From positions 1 to 10,756 of the forward strand of contig JACIXM010000154.1 in the NCBI GenBank assembly GCA_014360395.1: DNA of 10,756 nucleotides, written 5' to 3'. A model generated the notes under the pieces. That model worked only from the letters and a program-made list of their open reading frames with translations. It was not told the DNA's origin and searched no databases. How positions within the stretch are numbered: the stretch's first letter is position 1; each line of letters begins with the position of its first letter. Made by a program: the position numbers and the translations under genes. Positions 2-10,490 of the stretch are shown one piece after another. The stretch comes from Actinotalea sp. (lineage in GTDB: Bacteria > Actinomycetota > Actinomycetes > Actinomycetales > Cellulomonadaceae).

Positions 2-790
2 TCATCGCGCGCCCCGACGCCCCCGCTGCGGCGGAGGGCGACGCCCGCCGGTCCGCCGGGGGGACGCGGCGCCGCCCGACCCGGTGCCCCGGCCCACGCT
101 CCGTGCGGGGCGTTCGCGGGCGGGCCCCGCGTCGCCCGCGGGGGCGGGCTCGCGGGAGCTGTTGGCCGTCCGGCCGCGCACGATCCCGACGAACGTCTCG
201 ACGTCGGGGGTCGTTCGCTCCGACGGCCAGGCCAGGTGGACCGTGGAGGTCGGGGCGTCGGTCACGGGGCGGTAGGCCAGGTCCTTGCGGTGGTGCAGCC
301 GGGCGAGGGACTGCGGCACGACGAGCACGCCGGCGCCCGCTGCGACGAGCTCGACGGCCTCCTCGGTGGTCGCCGGCGGGGGCAGGAGGCTCGGCTCACC
401 CGGCGGGTCGGCCCAGCCCAGGACGTCGTCCGCGGGGACGAGGAGCGTCTCCTCGGCGAGGTCGGCGCCCGTCACCTCCTCCGCGGCCGTCACCAGGTGG
501 TCCTTCGGCACGACGACGACGCTCGCCTCGGTGTACAGGGGGATGGCGCTGAGGTCCGGCGGCCGCTCCGCCAGGCGCACCAGGCCGACGTCGGCGCGAC
601 CCTCCCGCAGCGCGGCGAGCTGGTCGTGCACGGTGGCGTGCACGAGCTCCAGCGGGGTGCCGGGTCGGCGCTCCTCCCACGTGCGGACCCAGCGCCCGGG
701 CGTCGTGCCGGGGACGAGGAGGAGCCGGAGCACCGGGTGCGCCGCGGGGCCGTCGTCGTCCGGCTGGGCCGGGGCGTGCTCGTGGTCCAT
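2..790 (-). CDS. LysR-type substrate-binding domain protein lacking the HTH domain
   Basis: A 262-residue protein resembling the effector-binding (periplasmic-binding-protein-like) half of LysR regulators. The fold is visible in LRLLLVPGTTPG (21-32), the amphipathic LEGR-like stretch HDQLAALREGRADVGLVRL (55-73), PLYTEASVVVVPKDHLV (84-100) and ATTEEAVELVAAGAGVLVVPQ (140-160). A complete LysR regulator has about 300 residues with a 60-residue winged HTH first; here the effector domain starts almost at once after an acidic leader, so no HTH is encoded. The segment 200-212 (FVGIVRGRTANSS) is followed by a low-complexity Arg/Pro/Gly tail (213-262) with many arginines. The ATG at 790 is preferred over the longer frame reaching 937 because GGGGGAGG lies just before it and the upstream extension is not protein-like. 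It is divergent from the DUF5997-like gene, which suggests a shared function. The family assignment is solid; the ligand and mechanism are unknown. Confidence 0.85.
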   Translation of the reverse strand: MDHEHAPAQPDDDGPAAHPVLRLLLVPGTTPGRWVRTWEERRPGTPLELVHATVHDQLAALREGRADVGLVRLAERPPDLSAIPLYTEASVVVVPKDHLVTAAEEVTGADLAEETLLVPADDVLGWADPPGEPSLLPPPATTEEAVELVAAGAGVLVVPQSLARLHHRKDLAYRPVTDAPTSTVHLAWPSERTTPDVETFVGIVRGRTANSSREPAPAGDAGPARERPARSVGRGTGSGGAASPRRTGGRRPPPQRGRRGAR

Positions 791-827
791 CCCACCTCCC
801 CCTGGCGCGTCCGGCCGGGCGGTACCC

Positions 828-833
828 ACGCTA
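828..833 (-). promoter_or_regulatory. Putative -10 box (TAGCGT) of the LysR-effector-domain gene
   Basis: On the minus strand TAGCGT matches the actinobacterial TANNNT -10 consensus. Transcription would start near 821, giving a leader of about 30 bases that contains the GGGGGAGG ribosome binding site. No convincing -35 is visible. It lies back to back with the promoter of the plus-strand gene at 888, so one regulator bound in this gap could control both. Confidence 0.45.
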
Positions 834-875
834 CCGGCGGACCGGGCCGGACCAGGCCCGCGCGCGCACCGCCCG

Positions 876-881
876 TATCCT
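876..881 (+). promoter_or_regulatory. Putative -10 box (TATCCT) for a leaderless mRNA of the DUF5997-like gene
   Basis: TATCCT fits TANNNT and ends exactly six bases before the GTG at 888, so transcription would start at the start codon itself. No Shine-Dalgarno sequence lies upstream of 888 or of the internal ATG at 936, which supports leaderless translation from GTG 888. The same six-base spacing recurs at the potassium channel gene and at the hydrolase gene. Confidence 0.6.
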
Positions 882-887
882 GGCGCG

Positions 888-1292
888 GTGACCGACACCC
901 CCGCGCAGCCCCGCCGACAGCGCCAGTCCCAGTCCATGAAGGCCGCGACCGCGGCGGCGAAGCTGGAGATCTACCTGCCGGCCGCGCCGGAGGAGTTCCA
1001 GCGCTCGACCCCCACGCGCGAGGAGCTCGCGGCGCTGCAGCAGGACCCGCCGGCCTGGCTGGTGGAGCTGCGGAAGAACGGCCCGCACCCGCGGCAGGTC
1101 GTGGCGGCGCGGCTGCGCGTGTCGACGAGCGGCCTCGCCCGCGCCGGGATCACCCAGCCGCTGACCACGGCGGAGATCGAGGCCCTGCAGGCCGACCCGC
1201 CCGACTGGCTGCTGCGCGAGCGCCGCACCTTCAAGGACGTCCGCGCGCAGGAGCAGCGTCTGCGGGAGCGCGCGGCGGCCGAGGACCACTGA
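888..1292 (+). CDS. DUF5997-like small protein with a possible HTH
   Basis: A 134-residue soluble, basic protein that I match by memory to the actinobacterial family DUF5997 (function unknown). The conserved core begins at residue 17 (MKAATAAAKLEIYLPAAPEEFQ). Two similar motifs are visible: LAALQQDPPAWLVELR (47-62) and IEALQADPPDWLLRER (97-112), each preceded by a Thr and acidic residues. Between them VVAARLRVSTSGLARAG (71-87) has the spacing of a helix-turn-helix (Ala at helix-2 position 5, Ser after the turn, hydrophobics on the second helix). The C-terminus is a charged helix (113-134). I chose the GTG at 888 because a -10 box ends six bases before it and no ribosome binding site precedes the internal ATG at 936. 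The neighbour on the opposite strand is a LysR effector domain lacking an HTH, so this protein might supply DNA binding to that partner. That role is inference. Confidence 0.75.
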   Translation: MTDTPAQPRRQRQSQSMKAATAAAKLEIYLPAAPEEFQRSTPTREELAALQQDPPAWLVELRKNGPHPRQVVAARLRVSTSGLARAGITQPLTTAEIEALQADPPDWLLRERRTFKDVRAQEQRLRERAAAEDH

Positions 1293-1308
1293 CGACCCTC
1301 GTCGGGCT

Positions 1309-1332
1309 GGACCGTGGCGTTCGGCCGCGTCC
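1309..1332. terminator. Possible bidirectional terminator hairpin between convergent genes
   Basis: GGA(C)CGTGGC pairs with GCCGCGTCC around the loop GTTCG, giving about nine pairs with one bulged C and one G-U pair. It lies in the 75-base gap between the convergent DUF5997-like and FUSC genes, where a terminator is expected. There is no T tract on either side, so in a genome this GC-rich the hairpin could also be chance. Confidence 0.35.
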
Positions 1333-1367
1333 GGGGGAGGGGATCACCAGGTCGGGGCAGCCGGGCC

Positions 1368-2336
1368 TCAGGTCGACCCGGCCGGCACGTCCGTCCGCCC
1401 GGGCGCGCGCTCGGTGCGGTGCAGGAGCCACGCCGCCAGGAGCGCCACGGCGGCCCCGGCGACGGTGAGCAGCAGCCGGTCGACCGCGACGACGACGCTC
1501 TCACCGGCGAGCCCGCCGGAGGAGAGCAGGACGACGAGTGCGGTCGAGGCGGCGGCGAGGAGCCGCTGCTCCTTCACCACGGCCCATCCGACGGTCAGCA
1601 GCAGCAGGACGAGGGCCGTGACCAGGGCGAGCGGTGTCGGCAGGACCAGGACGCCGACGACGCCGGCGACGATCCCGACGAGGGTGCCGAGGACGCGCTC
1701 CACGGCCAGGTGACCCGTCTCGCCGGGGACGGGCCGCAGGATCGAGGCGATCGCCAGGACCATCCAGTAGCCGTGGCTCACCTCGAGCTCCACGACGACG
1801 AAGGCCGCGGCGCCTGCCGCGAGCGCCGTCGCCGCGGCGTGGCGCCAGGCCATCCCGGCCGGCGCGCCCGGGAGGGACGCACGGGCGGGCAGGAGCCGCG
1901 CCAGCACCGCGACGATGCCGAAGCCCACGAGCAACCAGGACGCGAGGGCGAGCGGCCGGTCCTCCAGGCCGACCGAGGCGCTCAGCGCCACCAGGACCGG
2001 CAGGAGCGCGCCGGCCCCCGCCACCCGGCGGTTGAGGGGCGCGGCGAGGAGCGCCGACGCGGCCACCGCGAGGGCCGTGCCGACGGCCGACCCGCTCACC
2101 GCGAGCCCCACGGCGCCGGCCGCAGCCGTCGCGGCCGCTGCGCCGACGACGACGCCGGCACCCGTCCGGGCGACGGCCGGCACCAGCCCGGCGAGGAAGC
2201 CGAGCACGACGCCGAGGGCGGCGACGGGGCCGTCGAGCGCGTTCGCGACCGCGGCGACGGCCAGCAGCGGTGCGACGAGGGCCCCGGCGAGCGCCAGGGC
2301 GCGCCGCGGCGGCCACGACCACGCCGGTGCGCTCAC
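1368..2336 (-). CDS. FUSC family integral membrane protein (aromatic acid/fusaric acid exporter-like)
   Basis: A 322-residue, strongly hydrophobic protein with two blocks of membrane segments: roughly 11-150 (about five to six helices) and 163-306 (about five). The second block has the signature of the FUSC_2 domain: HGYWMVLAIASILRP (188-202), then a conserved Glu-Arg at 213-214 followed by LGTLVGIVAGVVGVLVL (216-232). FUSC proteins are linked to efflux of aromatic acids such as fusaric acid or p-hydroxybenzoate; this one is a single-unit form without the large cytoplasmic domain of AaeB-type proteins. The GTG start at 2336 overlaps the stop of the potassium channel gene by four bases (GTGA). 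No clear ribosome binding site precedes it, so translation probably depends on coupling to the channel gene. The C-terminal tail (307-322) is polar. The substrate cannot be told from the sequence. Confidence 0.8.
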   Translation of the reverse strand: MSAPAWSWPPRRALALAGALVAPLLAVAAVANALDGPVAALGVVLGFLAGLVPAVARTGAGVVVGAAAATAAAGAVGLAVSGSAVGTALAVAASALLAAPLNRRVAGAGALLPVLVALSASVGLEDRPLALASWLLVGFGIVAVLARLLPARASLPGAPAGMAWRHAAATALAAGAAAFVVVELEVSHGYWMVLAIASILRPVPGETGHLAVERVLGTLVGIVAGVVGVLVLPTPLALVTALVLLLLTVGWAVVKEQRLLAAASTALVVLLSSGGLAGESVVVAVDRLLLTVAGAAVALLAAWLLHRTERAPGRTDVPAGST

Positions 2337-2836
2337 GGCGCCACCGGTCGTGCGAGCCGGCGCGAGAAGAGCGCGGCGAGGGCCCCGAGGAAGACGATGT
2401 CGAAGAGGAGCTGCGTCGTGACCAGCACCCTGGCTGCCTGACCGGTCGCGTGGACGTCCCCGTAGCCGACCGTGGTCATCGTCGTGGCCGAGAAGTACAG
2501 CGCATCGATGCGCGTGGTGATCCCGGTGATCTCGCCCTCGACGACCGTCGCGAGCACGTAGTAGGCGAAGGCGAAGACGACGAGCACGACCTGCGCGAGC
2601 AGCACGAGCCGCAGCGGGGTCAGCACGCCCTCGCCGCCGGTGCGGACCCGCCGCACCTCGCGGCGTGTGACCGCGCCGACGCCCCCGACGGCCAGGACGG
2701 TGAGCCCGATGCCGAGCGCCAGGTCCCGGGTGGGGCGGGACGCGTCGAGCGGGACCGCGAAGTACAGGAGCAGGACGGCGAGGAGGTTCAGCGCACCGCT
2801 CCACCAGCTCTCGGCCCGCCGCATCGCCCCCGGCAT
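2333..2836 (-). CDS. Small potassium channel (ion_trans_2 type, TVGYGD filter)
   Basis: A 167-residue membrane protein carrying the potassium selectivity filter TVGYGD (122-127). It is preceded by a pore helix (IDALYFSATTMT, 110-121) and flanked by an outer helix (75-96) and an inner helix (138-158). Two further membrane segments lie upstream (about 14-30 and 39-56), so the topology looks like four transmembrane helices plus one pore loop. No RCK/TrkA-N ligand-binding domain is present. The channel would be a tetramer in the cytoplasmic membrane, passing K+. I chose the ATG at 2836 because TACTGT ends six bases upstream, a leaderless arrangement; a GTG at 2857 lies upstream of that -10 box. 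The next gene, a FUSC exporter, starts inside this stop codon, suggesting joint expression. The family call is firm; gating is unknown. Confidence 0.88.
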   Translation of the reverse strand: MPGAMRRAESWWSGALNLLAVLLLYFAVPLDASRPTRDLALGIGLTVLAVGGVGAVTRREVRRVRTGGEGVLTPLRLVLLAQVVLVVFAFAYYVLATVVEGEITGITTRIDALYFSATTMTTVGYGDVHATGQAARVLVTTQLLFDIVFLGALAALFSRRLARPVAP

Positions 2837-2842
2837 GATCGG

Positions 2843-2848
2843 ACAGTA
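2843..2848 (-). promoter_or_regulatory. Putative -10 box (TACTGT) for a leaderless channel-FUSC mRNA
   Basis: Minus-strand TACTGT fits TANNNT and ends six bases before the ATG at 2836, so the mRNA would begin at the start codon. No Shine-Dalgarno sequence is seen in this gap. No -35 hexamer is evident. The transcript would carry the channel gene and the coupled FUSC gene. Confidence 0.6.
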
Positions 2849-2887
2849 GCGTCCCACCCCGTCCGCACGGGAGAGGCGTCCCGGAGG

Positions 2888-3331
2888 TCAGACCGCGGCT
2901 GCTGCCGTCCGCGCCGCCAGCCCGGCCACGGCCACGGTCAGCACCAGGGTGGCGAGGCCGAAGGCGGACTCCAGCGTCGTCACCCCGGCCAGGACGCCGG
3001 CGAGCGAGACGAGCTCGACGACGGCGGCGACCACCGCCAGGACGGCCCCGGCCAGGGCGGCGTCCCGCAGGGTGCGCGGACGGCCGACGTCAGCCCGCCG
3101 CCGTCCGACGACGATCCAGACGGCGAGGCCGGCGGGCACCGCCGCGGCGACCATCGCCGCCGCGGTGGCCGTCTCGAACGGGGCGTCCCGGACCATCATG
3201 AGGACGGTGCCCCCGGCCACCACCGTGGCCAGCTGCACCACGCAGATCGCGAGGAGGAGCGTCGACCAGGGGCGGTGCCGCACGGGTGCGGGCACGGCGA
3301 CCCGGGTCGGTTCGCTGGTCGTCTCGCGCAT
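2888..3331 (-). CDS. Hypothetical integral membrane protein, four helices
   Basis: A 147-residue protein that I do not recognise. The N-terminus (1-23) is polar, then four hydrophobic segments follow: LLLAICVVQLATVVAGG (25-41), MVAAAVPAGLAVWIVV (59-74), a long one at about 90-115 (ALAGAVLAVVAAVVELVSL), and GLATLVLTVAVAGLAAR (125-141). There are no obvious catalytic or metal-binding residues. The ATG at 3331 is chosen over the upstream GTG at 3379 because GGAGGG lies eight bases before it and the extra 16 residues are Pro/Gly/Arg-rich. A -10-like TACGAT lies at 3402-3407. It sits between the channel gene and another small membrane gene on the same strand, with a gap on each side, so it may be a separate transcript. 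Function unknown. Confidence 0.65.
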   Translation of the reverse strand: MRETTSEPTRVAVPAPVRHRPWSTLLLAICVVQLATVVAGGTVLMMVRDAPFETATAAAMVAAAVPAGLAVWIVVGRRRADVGRPRTLRDAALAGAVLAVVAAVVELVSLAGVLAGVTTLESAFGLATLVLTVAVAGLAARTAAAAV

Positions 3332-3401
3332 CCTTCCGCCCTCCGGCCCACGCCGGTCGCCCGGCGGCGGGTCGGCCACGTGCCGACCGGCGCCTGCGAC
3401 G

Positions 3402-3407
3402 ATCGTA
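3402..3407 (-). promoter_or_regulatory. Putative -10 box (TACGAT) of the four-helix membrane protein gene
   Basis: TACGAT on the minus strand fits TANNNT. Transcription would start near 3395, giving a leader of about 64 bases up to the ATG at 3331, with GGAGGG within it. If the GTG at 3379 were used instead, the leader would be about 16 bases with no ribosome binding site. Confidence 0.4.
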
Positions 3408-3425
3408 GCGAGGGCCCGCCGGCCC

Positions 3426-3734
3426 TCAGCCGCCGACGGCGACGAGCATCACGACGAGCGTCAGCGCAGCCACCGCGGCCAGCGCCATGCCCAACCACGC
3501 CCGGCGCCGGGCGGGTCCCGGTGGGGCGATCAGGCCGGCACCGACGGCACCGGCGAGCCCGAGCGGGAGGAAGGCCGACCCGGCGACCCGCAACCACTGC
3601 GGCACGTCGGCCGTGCCGAAGGTCAGGAACGCGATCCACGCGACGGCGGCGAGGGCGAGGGCGCCGAGGACCACGCCGGCGGTCCCGATCACGGTCCGGT
3701 CCAGGGTGAGGGGGTCCTGCATCCGGGTGGTCAT
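3426..3734 (-). CDS. Hypothetical small membrane protein, three helices
   Basis: A 102-residue hydrophobic protein of unknown function. Three membrane segments are visible at about 14-40 (VIGTAGVVLGALALAAVAWI), 50-69 (VAGSAFLPLGLAGAVGAGLI) and 79-101 (AWLGMALAAVAALTLVVMLV), separated by a loop with TADVPQWLR and a basic GPARRR loop. No family is recognised and no active-site residues stand out. The ATG at 3734 is well supported by AGGAGG six bases upstream. It is divergent from the hydrogenase operon with 128 bases between the start codons, and no TANNNT box is visible for it in that gap. It could be an independent gene or the first gene of a minus-strand unit with the next membrane gene, 94 bases further on, though that gene has its own -10-like box. 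Confidence 0.65.
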   Translation of the reverse strand: MTTRMQDPLTLDRTVIGTAGVVLGALALAAVAWIAFLTFGTADVPQWLRVAGSAFLPLGLAGAVGAGLIAPPGPARRRAWLGMALAAVAALTLVVMLVAVGG

Positions 3735-3862: not shown

Positions 3863-5008
3863 ATGGACAGGCACGCACAGGTCATCGACGTCGACGGTCT
3901 CCAGCTGCTCATCGAGGTGCTGGCGTCCCGGGGGTACACCGTCATGGGCCCGACGGTCCGCGACGGCGCGGTGGTGGTCGCGCCCGTGGCGGGCGTGGCC
4001 GACCTGCCCCGGGGACTGCGCGACGAGCAGGACGCTGCGCACTACCGCCTGGTACCCCGCGACGACGACGCGTTCTTCGGTCACGCCGCCGCCGTGCAGG
4101 GCGCCAAGCCCGTGCTCTTCCCGGCCGACCAGCTGCTGTGGCGCGCGCGCCGCTCGGAGGACGGCTTCCGGCTGGACGCGTCGGACGACGACGACGCCGC
4201 GCCGGTCGCCCTGCTCGGCGCCCGCTCCTGCGATCTTGCGGCCGTGGACATCCACGACGAGGTGCTCCTGCGGCGCCGGTTCTCCGACGCGCACTACGCG
4301 CAGCGGCGGGCCGGGACGTTCGTCGTCGCCGTGACCTGCGGCGACCCCGCCGGCACGTGCTTCTGCGCCTCGACGGGCACCGGTCCGCGACCGGGCGCCG
4401 GCTTCGACCTCCTCCTCACCGAGCTGCTCGAGCCGGTCCACCGCTTCCTGGTCGAGGTCGGCAGCGTGCGGGGTGCAGAGGTCCTCGCCGAGGTCCCCGC
4501 GGCGCCTGCCGGGCCGGGTGACCTCGCCGCCGCCGACGACGTCGTCGTGCGCGCCACCGGGCGCATGGGGCGCGTGCTGGAGACCGAGGGGCTGCGGGAC
4601 GTCCTGTACGCCGCGGCCGAGAGCCCGCACTGGGACGACGTCGCCTCCCGCTGCCTCGCCTGCACGAGCTGCACCCTCGTGTGCCCGACGTGCTTCTGCA
4701 CGTCGGTGGAGGACGTGGCGGACCTCACCGGCGACGTCGCCGAGCGGCACCGCGTCTGGGACTCGTGCTTCTCGAAGGACTTCGCCTACATCCACGGCGG
4801 GAGCCTGCGGGGCGAGACACGCTCGCGCTACCGGCAGTGGATCACCCACAAGCTGGCCGCCTGGCAGGACCAGTTCGGCATGCTCGGCTGCGTCGGCTGC
4901 GGGCGCTGCATCACGTGGTGCCCGGCGGCGATCGACATCACCGCCGAGGCCGCGGCCCTGCGGGCGGCGACCCCGCTCGTCACGACAGGGGAAGGAGCCC
5001 GGCGATGA
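3863..5008 (+). CDS. hyhB: Group 3b [NiFe] hydrogenase beta subunit, two [4Fe-4S] motifs
   Basis: A 381-residue iron-sulfur electron-transfer subunit (also named HydB in Pyrococcus). The N-terminal two thirds contain the conserved [16 protein letters not shown] (119-134) and a Cys-rich stretch with C159, C166 and C168 ([12 protein letters not shown], 164-175). The C-terminal part has two ferredoxin-like motifs, [16 protein letters not shown] (264-279) and [16 protein letters not shown] (343-358), each CxxCxxCxxxCP. These would carry electrons between the flavin subunit and the small subunit in the cytoplasm. The length fits the family. The ATG at 3863 has GGGAGG five bases upstream. It is the first gene of the operon, and its stop overlaps the gamma-subunit start (ATGA). 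An acidic insert, SDDDDAA (107-113), looks unusual but lies in a loop region. The call is firm because all four subunits occur in the canonical beta-gamma-delta-alpha order. Confidence 0.93.
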
Positions 5009-5862
5009 CCAGCGTCCTCGAGGGCCGGCCGTCCGCCCCGCCGGACCCCATGCGACCCGTCCCGTACCGTGTGGAGCGGTTGCGTCAGGAGACCCGGGAC
5101 ACCTGGACGCTCGAGCTCGAGCCCGTCGGCGGGGCACCGCTGCGCTACCGCGCCGGGCAGTTCACCATGCTCGACGCGTTCGGCGTCGGCGAGGTGCCGA
5201 TCTCCATCAGCGGCGACCCGACCCGTCCCGGTCCGCTGGAGCACACGATCCGCGACGTCGGCGCGGTGACGCACGCGCTGGTGTCCGCGCGGGAGGGCGA
5301 GGTGCTCGGCGTCCGCGGCCCGTTCGGCACCACCTGGGACGTGACCGACGGGCAGGGCGGCGACGTCGTCCTCGTGGCGGGCGGCATCGGCCTGGCGCCG
5401 CTGCGGCCCGCGCTGCTCGAGCTCCTCGCGCACCGCGATCGCTACGGCCGCGTGGTCCTGCTCTACGGCGCGCGCACCCCGGAGGACATCCTCTTCGGCG
5501 AGGAGCTGCGGACCTGGGCGCGCGACCTCGGCGTCGCCGTCGACGTCACCGTCGACAACGGCCAGCACGCGTGGCGCGGCAAGGTCGGCCTCGTCACCCA
5601 GCTCGTCCCGCGCGCCGGCTTCGACGCGCGGCACACCCTCGCCCTCGTCTGCGGACCCGAGGTGATGATGCGGTACGTCGCCCAGGCCCTGGTGGACCGC
5701 GGCGTGCCCGCCGACCGCGTGCGGCTGTCCATGGAGCGCAGCATGAAGTGCGGGATCGGGCTGTGCGGCCACTGCCAGCTGCGCGAGCTCTTCGTCTGCG
5801 TGGACGGCCCGGTGCTCAGCTACGACCGTCTCGCCCCGCTGCTGACCTGCCGGGAGCTGTGA
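5005..5862 (+). CDS. hyhG: Group 3b [NiFe] hydrogenase gamma subunit, FAD/NAD(P)-binding with [2Fe-2S]
   Basis: A 285-residue subunit of the ferredoxin-NADP reductase superfamily (HydG in Pyrococcus). The FAD-binding barrel (about 16-112) includes [20 protein letters not shown] (49-68), a sequence typical of this subunit. The NAD(P)-binding domain starts with [15 protein letters not shown] (121-135) and includes [11 protein letters not shown] (154-164) and CGPEVMM (216-222). The C-terminal dihydroorotate-dehydrogenase-B-type [2Fe-2S] motif is [17 protein letters not shown] (249-265), with C249, C254, C257 and C265. It exchanges hydride with NAD(P)H and passes single electrons to the beta subunit. 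Whether NADP or NAD is preferred cannot be read here with certainty. GAAGGAG lies seven bases before the ATG, which overlaps the beta stop by four bases; the small subunit starts on the last base of this stop (TGATG). Confidence 0.93.
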
Positions 5863-6692
5863 TGACCACGACCCCGCTGCTGCCCGTCCCGCACGTGCCG
5901 CCCGCCCGCGCCACGCGCCCGACCCTCGCCGTGTGGAAGTTCGCCTCCTGCGACGGCTGCCAGCTCACCCTCCTCAACTGCGAGGACGAGCTCATGGCGC
6001 TCGCGGGCGCGGTCCGCATCGCGTACTTCCCGGAGGCGACGCGCGCCGTCGTCGACGGCCCGTACGACCTGTCCCTCGTCGAGGGCTCGGTCACGACCCC
6101 GGAGGAGGTCGAGCGCATCGGGCAGATCCGTGCGATGTCCCGGCACCTGGTGACCATCGGCGCCTGCGCGACCACCGGTGGGATCCAGGCCCTGCGCAAC
6201 TTCGCCGACGTCGCCGAGTTCCGGTCGGTCGTCTACGCCCACCCCGAGTACCTGTCGACGCTCGACCGCTCCACGCCGATCTCCGCGCACGTCACCGTCG
6301 ACTTCGAGCTGCGTGGCTGCCCGGTCGACAAGAACCAGCTCCTCGAGGTGCTCGCCGCGTACCTGCAGCGACGTCGACCCCGCATCCCGACCTACAGCGT
6401 GTGCGTGGAGTGCAAGAGGCGCGGCGCCGTCTGCGTGACGGTCGCCCACGGCACCCCGTGCCTGGGCCCGGTCACCCAGGCCGGCTGCGGCGCGCTGTGC
6501 CCGGCGTTCGCCCGCGGCTGCTACGGCTGCTTCGGCCCGCAGGACTCCCCGAACACCTCGGCGCTCGCCGACCGGCTGCTCGCGGCGGGGATGGCCCCGG
6601 ACGAGGTCATGCGGGTCTACCGCACGTTCAACGCGGCGTCCGAGCCGTTCCGCCGCGAGAGCGAGCGGCACGAGGGGGAGGTGTCCTCATGA
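5862..6692 (+). CDS. hyhS: Group 3b [NiFe] hydrogenase delta (small) subunit
   Basis: A 276-residue small subunit (HydD in Pyrococcus) with three predicted Fe-S clusters. The proximal cluster ligands are C30 and C33 ([14 protein letters not shown]), C102 ([10 protein letters not shown]) and C153 (RGCPVDK). The C-terminal half has eight further cysteines: C181, C184, C191, C200, C209, C213, C220 and C223, in [11 protein letters not shown], the [18 protein letters not shown] stretch and RGCYGCFGP, enough for a medial and a distal [4Fe-4S]. There is no twin-arginine signal peptide and no membrane anchor, so the enzyme is cytoplasmic, unlike group 1 uptake hydrogenases. GGGAG lies five bases before the ATG. 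The gene overlaps the gamma stop by one base and the large-subunit start by four. The length and motif order match group 3b. Confidence 0.95.
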
Positions 6693-7999
6693 CGCACAAG
6701 CTCAGCGACGGCGGCCAGGTGCTCCAGGTCGGCACGCTCGCCCGGGTCGAGGGCGAGGGCGGCATGCACGTCGCGATCCGCGACGGGCGCGTCACCGACG
6801 TCCAGCTGCGCATCTACGAGCCGCCGCGGTTCTACGAGGGCTTCCTGCGCGGACGGGCGTGGACCGAGCCGCCGGACATCACCGCGCGCATCTGCGGGAT
6901 CTGCCCGGTCGCCTACCAGTTCAGCTCGTGCCTGGCGATCGAGGACGCGTGCGGCGTCGCGGTCACGGACGCCATCCGCACGATGCGCCGGCTCCTGTAC
7001 TGCGGGGAGTGGATCGAGAGCCACGCGCTGCACGTCTTCCTCCTGCACGCCCCGGACTTCCTCGGCTACGACGGCGCCATCGAGATGGCGGCGGACCACC
7101 CGCAGGTCGTCGAGCGTGGCCTGCGGATCAAGAAGGTCGGCAACGACCTCATGACCGTCGTCGGGGGGCGCTCGGTGCACCCGGTCAACGTCAGGGTGGG
7201 CGGCTTCTACCGGATGCCGACGGTCGTCGAGCTGCGCGCCCTGCGCCCGGCGCTGGCCCGCGCGCTGGAGGACGCCGTGGCGACCGTGCGCCTCGTCTCG
7301 ACGTTCGCCTTCCCCGAGTGGGACCAGCCGTGGACGTACCTCGCGCTGCGGCCGGAGGCGGGCTACCCGATCGAGGGGGGCGACGTCGTCACCTCCGCCG
7401 GGGCCGCCTGGCCGGTGCGCGCCTTCACCGAGCACATCACCGAGGTCCACGTCGCGCACTCGAACGCCCTCCACGCGCGCCTCGACGGGCAGGACAGCCC
7501 CTACGTCGTCGGGCCGCTCGCCCGGTACACGCTCAACCACGACCGTCTCTCCCCGCTGGCCCAGGACCTCGCGCGCGAGGCGGGCCTGGCCACGACGTGC
7601 CGCAACCCGTTCCGCTCGATCATCGTGCGGGCCGTGGAGCTGGTGTACGCGATCGAGGAGGCGCTGCGGATCGTCGACGGGTGGGCCGACGGCGCGGCGC
7701 CGTCCGTGCCCGTCCCGGCGCGGGCGGGCGAGGGGTTCGGTGCCACCGAGGCCCCGCGCGGGGTCCTGTTCCACCGGTACGTCCTCGACGACGCGGGCAT
7801 CATCACCGACGCGCAGATCGTGCCGCCGACGTCGCAGAACCAGCCCAGCATCGAGGCCGACCTGCGTGTCATGGCCGAGCGCTGGGTCGACCTCTCCGAC
7901 CACGACCTGGGCCACCGGTGCGAGCACGCCATCCGCAACTACGACCCGTGCATCTCCTGCGCCACGCACTTCCTCGACCTCACCGTGGAGCGGTCGTGA
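6689..7999 (+). CDS. hyhL: Group 3b [NiFe] hydrogenase alpha (large, catalytic) subunit
   Basis: A 436-residue catalytic subunit (HydA in Pyrococcus) carrying the Ni-Fe(CN)2CO site. The N-terminal L1 motif is [11 protein letters not shown] (67-77; C69 and C72) and the C-terminal L2 motif is DPCISCATH (419-427; C421 and C424), the four cysteine ligands. Also visible are RVEGEGG (19-25) and [12 protein letters not shown] (351-362), conserved in this group. After H427, the usual cleavage point, nine residues follow (FLDLTVERS), to be removed by the maturation endopeptidase once nickel is inserted. The length of about 430 residues fits group 3b and is shorter than group 1. GGGGGAGG lies seven bases before the ATG. 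The start overlaps the small-subunit stop, and its own stop overlaps the protease start, so enzyme and processing protease are made together. Confidence 0.95.
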
Positions 8000-8481
8000 G
8001 CGCGCTGGTCATCGGGCTGGGCAGCCCGGACCGGGGTGACGACGGCGTGGGCCCGGTCGTCGCCGCCGAGGTCGGGGCGCTGCGCCTGGCGGACGTCCGG
8101 GTCCTCACCCACGAGGACCCGACGTGCCTGGTGGAGCTCTGGGCGGGCGCCGATCGCGTCGTCGTCGTCGACGCCGTCCGCTCGGGGGCCGCGCCGGGCA
8201 CCGTCCATGAGCTCGACGCGACGGCCGGCGTCCTCGCCGACCGCGCCTGGGCGCGCACCGGGCGTGGGGGGACGCACGCCTTCGGGGTGGCGGCGGCGGT
8301 CGAGCTGGCCCGCGCCCTGCGCCGGCTGCCGTCTCGGCTCGTGCTCGTCGGGGTCGAGGGCGCGTCCTTCGAACCCGGCGCGGCGCTGAGCCCCGCCGTC
8401 GTCCGCGCCGTCCGTCCGGCTGCGTGTGCCGTGGCCCGCGTGCTCGCGCCCGCCGAGGAGGCCTCCGGTGTGCCTCGGTGA
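7996..8481 (+). CDS. Hydrogenase maturation endopeptidase (HycI/HyaD family)
   Basis: A 161-residue protease expected to cut the C-terminal extension off the large subunit after nickel loading. Family features are LVIGLGSPDRGDDGVGP (4-20), with the nickel-sensing acidic residue D16; VVVVDAVRSG (55-64), with D59; and GGTHAFG (91-97), with H94. The sequence VLVGVEG (116-122) closes the fold, and SPAVVRAVRPAACAVARVL (132-150) is the terminal helix. The GTG start at 7996 overlaps the large-subunit stop (GTGA), with GGAG five bases upstream. Its end overlaps hypC by 14 bases. Proteases of this family are specific to one large subunit, and the position right after the alpha gene identifies its target. 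Confidence 0.9.
   Translation: MSALVIGLGSPDRGDDGVGPVVAAEVGALRLADVRVLTHEDPTCLVELWAGADRVVVVDAVRSGAAPGTVHELDATAGVLADRAWARTGRGGTHAFGVAAAVELARALRRLPSRLVLVGVEGASFEPGAALSPAVVRAVRPAACAVARVLAPAEEASGVPR
8456..8461 (+). promoter_or_regulatory. Ribosome binding site AGGAGG fixing the hypC start
   Basis: AGGAGG ends six bases before the GTG at 8468. That GTG is followed directly by TGC, giving the Met-Cys N-terminus that HypC proteins require. Earlier in-frame starts, such as the ATG at 8426, would bury the essential cysteine and are therefore rejected. Confidence 0.75.
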
Positions 8482-8770
8482 GGTGGCGCGCGTCGTCCGG
8501 ACGCTGCCCGACCGCGTCGTGGAGACGGAGGGGACCCGTCGCGCCCGCGTCTCCGTGCTCACCCTCGACGGCCCCGTCGAGGCGGGGGACTGGCTGCTGG
8601 TGCACTCCGGCTTCGCGCTGCGGCGCCTCACCGACCCCGAGGCCCGCGCCGCCCTCGCCCTGCGCGGCGGCATGGACGAACCCCCGCGCGACGCCCTGCA
8701 CGCACCCCTGCACGACCCGACCCGCCGGACCGACGTCCCCGCGGTGACACCGACAGGAGGCCCGACATGA
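8468..8770 (+). CDS. hypC: HypC/HybG/HupF-type hydrogenase assembly chaperone, divergent
   Basis: A 100-residue protein starting (V/M)CLGEVARVV, with C2, the residue known in HypC to carry or contact the Fe(CN)2CO unit together with HypD. The small beta-barrel core follows: RARVSVLTLDG (25-35) and VEAGDWLLVHSGFALRRL (37-54), including the conserved HxGFA (46-50). Two things are unusual. The proline normally found near position 6 (MC-x-x-x-P) is replaced by valine. The C-terminus beyond residue 60 is longer than the usual 75-90-residue HypC and ends in a polar, Pro/Thr-rich tail. The start overlaps the protease gene by 14 bases in another frame, and the stop overlaps the EamA start (ATGA). It likely serves as a chaperone dedicated to this large subunit; HypD and the others must be encoded elsewhere. 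Confidence 0.88.
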   Translation: MCLGEVARVVRTLPDRVVETEGTRRARVSVLTLDGPVEAGDWLLVHSGFALRRLTDPEARAALALRGGMDEPPRDALHAPLHDPTRRTDVPAVTPTGGPT

Positions 8771-9684
8771 CCAGCACCCGCCGCACCGGCCTGCTCCTGG
8801 CCCTGACCACCGCCGCCATCAGCGGCGTCGCCGTCTTCCTCAACGGCTTCGGTGTCCGGGCGTTCGGCGACGCCACCGCGTACACGACGGCCAAGAACCT
8901 CGTCGCCGCCCTGGTGCTCCTCGCCGCCGTCGGCCTGGGCTCCAGGGCCGGCGCCCGGCTGACCCGACCGACCAGCCGGCGGCAGTGGGCCGGCCTGGCG
9001 GTCGTGGCGGTCGTCGGCGGCAGCGTGCCGTTCGTCCTCTTCTTCGAGGGACTCGCGCGGGCGTCGTCGGCCCAGTCGGCCGTGATCCACAAGACGCTGC
9101 TGGTGTGGGTGGCCCTGCTGGCCGTCCCCCTCCTGGGGGAGCGGCTGACCGCGTGGCACGGTCTGGCGGTGCTCCTCCTCGTCGTCGCGCAGGTGGGCCT
9201 CGTGGGCGGGGTCCCCCGCGCCCTGGCCTCCGGCGAGCTGATGATCCTCGGCGCCACCCTGCTGTGGGCTGTCGAGGTGGTGCTCGCCAAGCGCCTGCTC
9301 GCCGGGCTGTCCTCCTGGACCCTCGGTGTGGCGCGCATGGCCGGGGGCTCGGTCGTGCTCGTGGGGTGGTCCGCCACCCAGGGTCACCTGGCGGGGCTCG
9401 GGGCCGTGGACGCCACCGGGTGGGGCTGGGTGCTGCTGACCGGCGTGATCCTCGCCGGCTACGTCGCCACCTGGTTCGCCGCGCTCGCCCGCGCCCAGGC
9501 GGTGGACGTCACCGCGGTGCTCGTCCTCGCCGCCCCGATCACGGCCCTGCTGGCCGCGGTGGTCGACGGCGCGCCGCTCGCCCCCCAGGCGGTGTGGCTG
9601 CTCATGCTCGTCGCGGGGGCCGCCCTGGTCGCGCGGCAGATGTGGGTGCGTCCCGCGCTGCCGGCGGTGGCCGCGGCGACGTGA
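8767..9684 (+). CDS. EamA/DMT-superfamily transporter inside the hydrogenase operon
   Basis: A 305-residue membrane protein with about ten transmembrane helices (approximately 8-28, 39-56, 76-94, 102-122, 128-147, 156-175, 184-201, 219-238, 246-267 and 273-291). It is made of two EamA halves, the usual layout of 10-TMS drug/metabolite transporters. Typical sequences are HKTLLVWVALLAVPLLGERL (108-127) at the end of the first half's core and VTAVLVLAAPITALLAAVVD (248-267) in the second. AGGAGG sits six bases before the ATG at 8767, which overlaps the hypC stop; its own stop overlaps the next gene (GTGA). The substrate is not evident. There is no His-rich loop of the kind seen in nickel transporters of other families. 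Membership of the operon suggests a link to hydrogenase function or maturation, but this is inference. Confidence 0.85.
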   Translation: MTSTRRTGLLLALTTAAISGVAVFLNGFGVRAFGDATAYTTAKNLVAALVLLAAVGLGSRAGARLTRPTSRRQWAGLAVVAVVGGSVPFVLFFEGLARASSAQSAVIHKTLLVWVALLAVPLLGERLTAWHGLAVLLLVVAQVGLVGGVPRALASGELMILGATLLWAVEVVLAKRLLAGLSSWTLGVARMAGGSVVLVGWSATQGHLAGLGAVDATGWGWVLLTGVILAGYVATWFAALARAQAVDVTAVLVLAAPITALLAAVVDGAPLAPQAVWLLMLVAGAALVARQMWVRPALPAVAAAT

Positions 9685-10490
9685 GCAGGCTGCGCGAGCA
9701 GCGCGTCGCCGGCGAGCCCGGCGGCGGCCCGCTCCTGTTCGCGCGCTACGCCTACCCGCCCAACGAGCTGGGCTACTGCGGGCCGGACGCCTCGCGCGAG
9801 CTGCTCGAGCGCGCGAGCGCCGCAGGGGCGGGTGCGGCCGACGACGGCGGCCTGCGCCGTCAGGCCCGTGGGTTCGAGGGCGCGTGGCCGTACCTCGAGC
9901 TGATCGCGCACGCCAACGGGCTCGCGGATCCGCTGGACCGCCGGGTCGTCGAGGCCTACTGGGTGGGCAACCACCTGCTGCGGTCCGTGAGCCCGGCGGC
10001 GCTCGGCGCATGCCTGGAAGACCGGTTCGCCGACCGCGGCCGGGCGGCGTGGGCCGGGATCGCGGGCGGCGTCGTCGGGGGAGCCGTCCCGCACCACAGC
10101 TTCCACGTGCTGGCCGTGTACCCGTGGGTCGGGCTGCTGCGCTCGGGCGCGCGGGACCAGGCGCTGCGGGTCCTGGACCGGTGCCGCATCCGGTGCGGCC
10201 AGGTGCTCGAGGTCGCCGACGGGCACGCGCTCCTGCGCACCCGGCCGCTGCAGTGGGACGGGCAGCACCTCACCGAGGGGCCCGAGACCGTCGAGCGCGT
10301 CGTCACCCGGCTCGACGGGCACGGCCTGGCGCCGACGCTCGCGCCGGGGGACTGGTGCTCGGCGCACTGGGACTGGGCGTGCGACCGGCTGGACCGGCGC
10401 GGCGTGATGGGCCTGCGCTGGTGGACGCGCCGCCAGCTGGCCCTGGTCGACGGGCTCGAGCGGCCCGCTCCGACGCAGGTGCTCGCCTGA
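9681..10490 (+). CDS. DUF6390-like Cys/His/Trp-rich protein, last gene of the hydrogenase operon
   Basis: A 269-residue soluble protein that I match from memory, not by search, to DUF6390, a family of unknown function. Visible motifs are LLFARYAYPPNELGYCGPD (18-36), FEGAWPYLELIAHANG (65-80), VEAYWVGNHLL (90-100), GGAVPHHSFHVLAVYPWV (133-150), CRIRCGQVLEV (168-178) and LAPGDWCSAHWDWACDRL (220-237). The clustered C33, H98, H138, H139, H142, C168, C172, C226, H229 and C234 could bind a metal or Fe-S cluster, and the Trp-rich segments could contact a cofactor. There are no membrane segments. The GTG at 9681 overlaps the EamA stop by four bases, and no good ribosome binding site precedes it, so it is probably translated by coupling. 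Position suggests an assembly or regulatory factor for this hydrogenase. The biochemical role is unknown. Confidence 0.7.
   Translation: MSRLREQRVAGEPGGGPLLFARYAYPPNELGYCGPDASRELLERASAAGAGAADDGGLRRQARGFEGAWPYLELIAHANGLADPLDRRVVEAYWVGNHLLRSVSPAALGACLEDRFADRGRAAWAGIAGGVVGGAVPHHSFHVLAVYPWVGLLRSGARDQALRVLDRCRIRCGQVLEVADGHALLRTRPLQWDGQHLTEGPETVERVVTRLDGHGLAPTLAPGDWCSAHWDWACDRLDRRGVMGLRWWTRRQLALVDGLERPAPTQVLA

Follow-up and report, generated by a model that had tools for sequence, protein, structure and literature searches.

Which task falls to the last gene of a [NiFe] hydrogenase operon in a genome where HypD, HypE and HypF cannot be recognized? The question is raised by the window, the whole 10,756-nucleotide stretch of contig JACIXM010000154.1 of Actinotalea sp. 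(GCA_014360395.1) that was analyzed here. A frame without internal stop at 9681..10490 of the + strand encodes a 269 aa protein, which is a member of the DUF6390 family (PF19927) with 308.9 bits against a Pfam gathering cut-off of 25. We propose, with a probability of roughly 0.65, that DUF6390 acts in [NiFe]-hydrogenase maturation, namely as a HypC-like carrier of the iron group, which would take part in another supply route together with a transporter where HypD, HypE and HypF (hereafter HypDEF) are absent. The original prediction had seen in this gene an assembly, cofactor or redox-regulation factor coupled to a group 3b hydrogenase. Taken as a whole it is partly supported; the relation to HypC and the lack of HypDEF in this genome were not part of it and are added here.

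The C-terminal part of the protein (residues 168-259; 10182..10457, + strand) is predicted to adopt the HypC fold. Against an alignment of 40 database HypC sequences and E. coli HypC, hhalign gave a score of 41.9 for whole DUF6390 (E-value = 1.8e-6) and 44.4 for its C-terminal part (E-value = 5.4e-8), exceeding all 200 column-shuffled controls (two sets of 100, with maxima of 21.3 and 22.1). Family-profile comparison returned HypC at 94% and every other valid family profile below 1%, the void hyaB comparison being left out. The top structural match was HypC 2z1c_B, covering 74/74 residues and placing C168 on Cys2. The PF01455 (HypC/HupF) Pfam model did not match DUF6390 at E-values up to 1, and the N-terminal Met-Cys of HypC/HupF is missing, the invariant cysteine being residue 168 (codon at 10182..10184, + strand), which profile alignment likewise sets on HypC Cys2. 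In E. coli HypC, a histidine near position 51 aids the binding of HypD. The conserved histidine of DUF6390 at this place is H229 (68/68; codon at 10365..10367, + strand), aligned with E. coli HypC His51. That C2 of HypC is essential and that H51 lies close to it is described in a section of PMC9002611. DUF6390 shares with HypC, HybG and HupF the predicted fold, a Cys and a His in the places of C2 and H51, the CxxxxGxV and GDW...H motifs and the hydrogenase setting. Unlike theirs, its cysteine lies inside the chain, preceded by a helical domain of ~150 residues, and therefore has no N-terminal amine nearby; a further difference is that its gene usually has that of an ordinary HypC as a neighbor.

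Residue conservation was studied in an alignment of 68 sequences (the window and 67/80 loci). C33, H139, C168, R169, H229, W230 and C234 are invariant (68/68), while H142 is conserved in 63/68 and H138 in 54/68. Position 172 is a cysteine in 2/68 (mostly W) and position 226 in 15/68 (mostly V). Eight Cys and His residues had been expected to be conserved as ligands; C172 and C226 are rarely Cys and fall away, the others are retained to the extent given, and H229 has to be added. Neither H229 nor W230 was in the earlier list, and the motifs named for the protein are present. The N-terminal domain (residues 16-167; 9726..10181, + strand) is all-helical, harbors the invariant C33 and H139, and yielded no relative in alignment and profile comparison: neither HypD, HypE, HypF, HypB, HypA or HypC nor HydA/B/D/G, HyaA, the proteases, EamA or the ABC binding protein gave a profile match (best 1.85%, HypF). 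Structural matches of the whole protein revealed no clear fold for this domain, but their list is filled by the C-terminal one. The HypC-HypD scaffold is similar in pairing a HypC-type part with another conserved part that contains Cys and His; the N-terminal domain, however, has no HypD match (PF01924 profile, 0.61%, and 0.55% for the C-terminal domain), and DUF6390 also adjoins an intact hypD.

Among 8000 candidates scored, 5286 DUF6390 homologues were found at E-values up to 0.001. Hydrogenase, protease or Hyp genes (at least 25 bits) lie near DUF6390 in 72/80 genome loci, the loci without such a match being L002, L014, L023, L024, L033, L041, L043 and L047. Two main settings recur, a 3b operon ending in HypC-EamA-DUF6390, and clusters of group-1 or hypFCDE genes, seen among others in Streptomyces and Actinoplanes (group-1 examples are L015, L018, L020, L030 and L087). 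The class draw added 16 HypD-bearing genomes; in all 16 DUF6390 lies among clustered hyp or hydrogenase genes, and in 10/16 it is beside hypD. This linkage across settings suggests that DUF6390 serves [NiFe] maturation broadly and, together with the HypC-type domain, supports the assembly or cofactor role that had been proposed. The supposed tie to group 3b as such is not supported: group-1 and hyp loci carry the gene too, which rules out a 3b-specific factor; nothing was found in favor of redox regulation. A replacement of HypD everywhere is also ruled out because DUF6390 adjoins hypD in many genomes. As separate observations, three loci have no hydrogenase genes within roughly 20 kb (L024, with DUF6390 and EamA; L033 and L043, with DUF6390 and an ABC importer), L018 has two DUF6390 genes, near 1.0 kb and 10.0 kb, and a DUF6390 fragment without hydrogenase genes nearby (L107, genome G345) is probably a remnant. 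A 71 aa HypC-like protein with a CxxC and no Met-Cys start was seen by eye between hypC and hypD (L091:18313-18528).

Absence of HypDEF is taken here as absence of profile matches. A phylum-wide draw of 216 genomes contained DUF6390 in 16, of which 6 have no HypD; PF00374 matched (E-value up to 0.001) in 16/16 of these and in 149/216 overall. With PF00374 at ~1e-10 or better, 125 genomes remained, and DUF6390 was present in 6/14 without HypD versus 10/111 with HypD (p = 0.003). Some HypD-less hydrogenase genomes have no DUF6390, and two of their loci were looked at (L102 and L103). Among 44 locus genomes chosen for having no hypDEF nearby, HypD and HypF were both absent in 40, none of which has HypE above its cut-off; the exceptions are L010, L035, L039 and L075, the HypE of L075 being only a fragment. 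Adding the window's genome, G008, G025, G129 and G168, genomes without HypDEF amount to 45 (G150 is the genome of L061). Their strongest weak matches reach 37 bits for HypF (cut-off 466) and 61 bits for HypE (cut-off 252), and are presumably acylphosphatase/YrdC and PurM/ThiL relatives. Hydrogenase structural genes are found in 38/45 of the loci (37/44 plus L089). HypC keeps its Met-Cys in 43/44 rows from HypD-less loci, and its histidine near position 51 is replaced by Q, S or R in five of them (L036, L037, L061, L067 and L092; not a full count, as the pattern missed or misread some other rows), where DUF6390 retains its own.

The gene preceding DUF6390 encodes an EamA-family transporter (8767..9684, + strand), the partner of DUF6390 in most HypDEF-less loci, which has no sequence relative in the PDB. 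In loci without EamA, the neighbor of DUF6390 is often an ABC importer composed of a binding protein, a fused permease and an ATPase, and G008 has a FecCD-type importer (L087). The best PDB match of the binding protein is an iron(III)-compound-binding protein (E-value = 1.3e-17), followed by Fe3+-type and pyridoxal-phosphate (PLP)-binding proteins; in NCBIfam the importer points to 2-aminoethylphosphonate transporters, far below the cut-offs. A transporter lies within 6.5 kb of DUF6390 in 58/59 HypD-less loci (exception L015) versus 6/51 HypD-bearing loci (EamA in L010, L035 and L075; ABC in L034, L093 and L097), with p = 4.7e-23, a value that overstates the case because the loci are related. 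The drawn genomes alone give 8/8 versus 3/25 (p = 1.2e-5). This tally leaves out the fragments G143 and G345, L099 (same genome as L034), L101, and L055, which is HypD-less with a hypF fragment at a contig end and no transporter; for 14 of the 59 HypD-less loci the search covered HypD alone, HypD-bearing status was based on hypD within the locus for part of the Streptomyces/Actinoplanes-type loci, and L044 was scored as importer-bearing from gene-finder output, as the 6.5-kb script missed its importer. On a DUF6390 tree (without the short rows L021, L041, L054 and L061, without L098, which has no full DUF6390, and without L101, from the same genome as L061), at least 9 switches in Hyp status are required, yet support extends to no more than 6 independent contrasts; in 2-3 of these the transporter follows Hyp status, and it does the opposite in hardly any, too few for significance. 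Cross-combinations indicate that the transporter tracks the absence of HypDEF and not the hydrogenase type: L020 (group 1 with EamA) and L025 (3b with ABC) are both HypDEF-less, while the HypD-bearing 3b loci L039 and L095 have no transporter. Apart from the transporter and families already explained, no gene family is conserved in HypDEF-less loci.

In the window, DUF6390 closes a series of eight genes on the + strand, all overlapping, as had been described from the sequence: HydB, the iron-sulfur subunit (3863..5008), HydG, the FAD/NAD(P) subunit (5005..5862), HydD, the small subunit (5862..6692), HydA, the large subunit with RICGIC and DPCISC motifs and a C-terminal tail (6689..7999), a HycI-type maturation protease (7996..8481), HypC (PF01455) with Met-Cys start and histidine (8471..8770), EamA and DUF6390. 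Subunits A, B, G and D, the FAD/NAD module and both Cys motifs identify a group 3b [NiFe] hydrogenase, the Pfam/NCBIfam matches of ShyA/HydA, ShyB/HydB, HydD and HydG-like type all lying below equivalog cut-offs. The GTG start of DUF6390 overlaps the EamA stop and no Shine-Dalgarno-like motif was seen in the 25 bases 5' of it, again in agreement with the original prediction. Upstream of the operon, the - strand (2-3734) carries genes for a LysR substrate-binding domain, for FUSC_2 and for an ion-channel domain, along with small unassigned ORFs. Elsewhere, a protein with a cyclic-nucleotide-binding domain is encoded beside HydG in the 3b operon (L088:4495-4974, L118:6547-7020), and L025:8226-8699 appears to be similar. 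An ORF downstream of a 3b operon (L028:6318-8204) resembles, on inspection of a motif, a nickel CO dehydrogenase.

How could such a protein act? Its HypC-type domain, with Cys168 as key residue and His229, would most likely hold Fe(CN)2CO or a precursor, and DUF6390 and the ordinary HypC of the operon would pass the iron group to the precursor of the large subunit ahead of the protease step. Where a genome encodes HypDEF, DUF6390 would take the iron group from HypCD. In genomes without them, such as the window's and many relatives, it may belong to another supply route tied to EamA or, in other lineages, to the ABC importer. Lacking HypDEF, the cell must obtain the iron group or its cyanide from elsewhere, and the transporter is the sole conserved partner left unexplained. 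We tentatively suggest, as one possibility, that these cells import an iron complex or a cyanide-bearing precursor through the dedicated transporter (EamA, iron-compound-type ABC or FecCD-type), from which DUF6390 and HypC would load the large subunit. These are ordinary transporter families, like other importers linked to metal enzymes, but no link of theirs to a HypC-type protein and to missing HypDEF is described in the literature searched (open-licence PMC text). There, no paper names DUF6390, none brings EamA together with HypC and hydrogenase, and none, judged by title and abstract start, treats [NiFe] maturation without HypDEF; activity data for HypDEF-less strains did not turn up either.

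An explanation whose chances fall slightly short of even is that DUF6390 acts as an accessory chaperone, like HupF/HupK or HoxL/HoxV, and protects or stores the iron group; in HypDEF-less genomes the cyanide and carbon monoxide would then be made by unrecognized enzymes, and the transporter would do no more than supply nickel or iron. DUF6390 also adjoins intact hypCDEF and so is no simple HypDEF replacement, and the precedent is described in passages of a 2025 review (PMC12134894): these scaffolds, too, are additional to HypA-F and involve a HypC relative. HupK and HoxV, however, resemble the large subunit according to the same passages, whereas DUF6390 does not (HydA profile, 0.20%) and its N-terminal domain has no HydA match. 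HypB is above cut-off in only 2 HypDEF-less genomes (G008 and G241), for which reason metal supply could matter, but it is also below cut-off in three HypD-bearing genomes (G224, G242 and G258), and its absence is thus not special. Against this explanation also stand the similarity of the ABC binding protein to iron-compound and PLP binders, not nickel binders, and the lack of any other gene family conserved in HypDEF-less loci. It is improbable that hydrogenases of HypDEF-less genomes carry a modified, cyanide-free active site that DUF6390 and HypC load: the cyanide-making HypE and HypF are indeed absent, but both Cys motifs are present in 42/45 large-subunit ORFs of HypD-less loci (the other 3 are cut or contain X) and the APRG motif and C-terminal tail are retained in most, so that the sites look ordinary. 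That HypDEF were missed in incomplete genomes deserves very little credence. Many of the genomes do come from metagenomes (545 contigs and 95.66% completeness for the window's own), but G008, in 20 contigs, has a listed completeness of 100%, HypD, HypE and HypF are missing together in 40/44 of the chosen locus genomes, and isolates lack all three as well (Cellulomonas carbonis, Actinotalea sp. Marseille-Q4924, Pedococcus cremeus, Nostocoides sp. F2B08 and Demequina strains).

A HypC-like carrier at work in HypDEF-less cells would bear on a general rule, as six Hyp proteins are called necessary for the [NiFe] hydrogenase cofactor in the 2025 review (PMC12134894). Complete active-site motifs in genomes without detected HypD, HypE and HypF challenge this requirement, with DUF6390 and its neighboring transporter as obvious candidates to provide the cofactor step that is missing.
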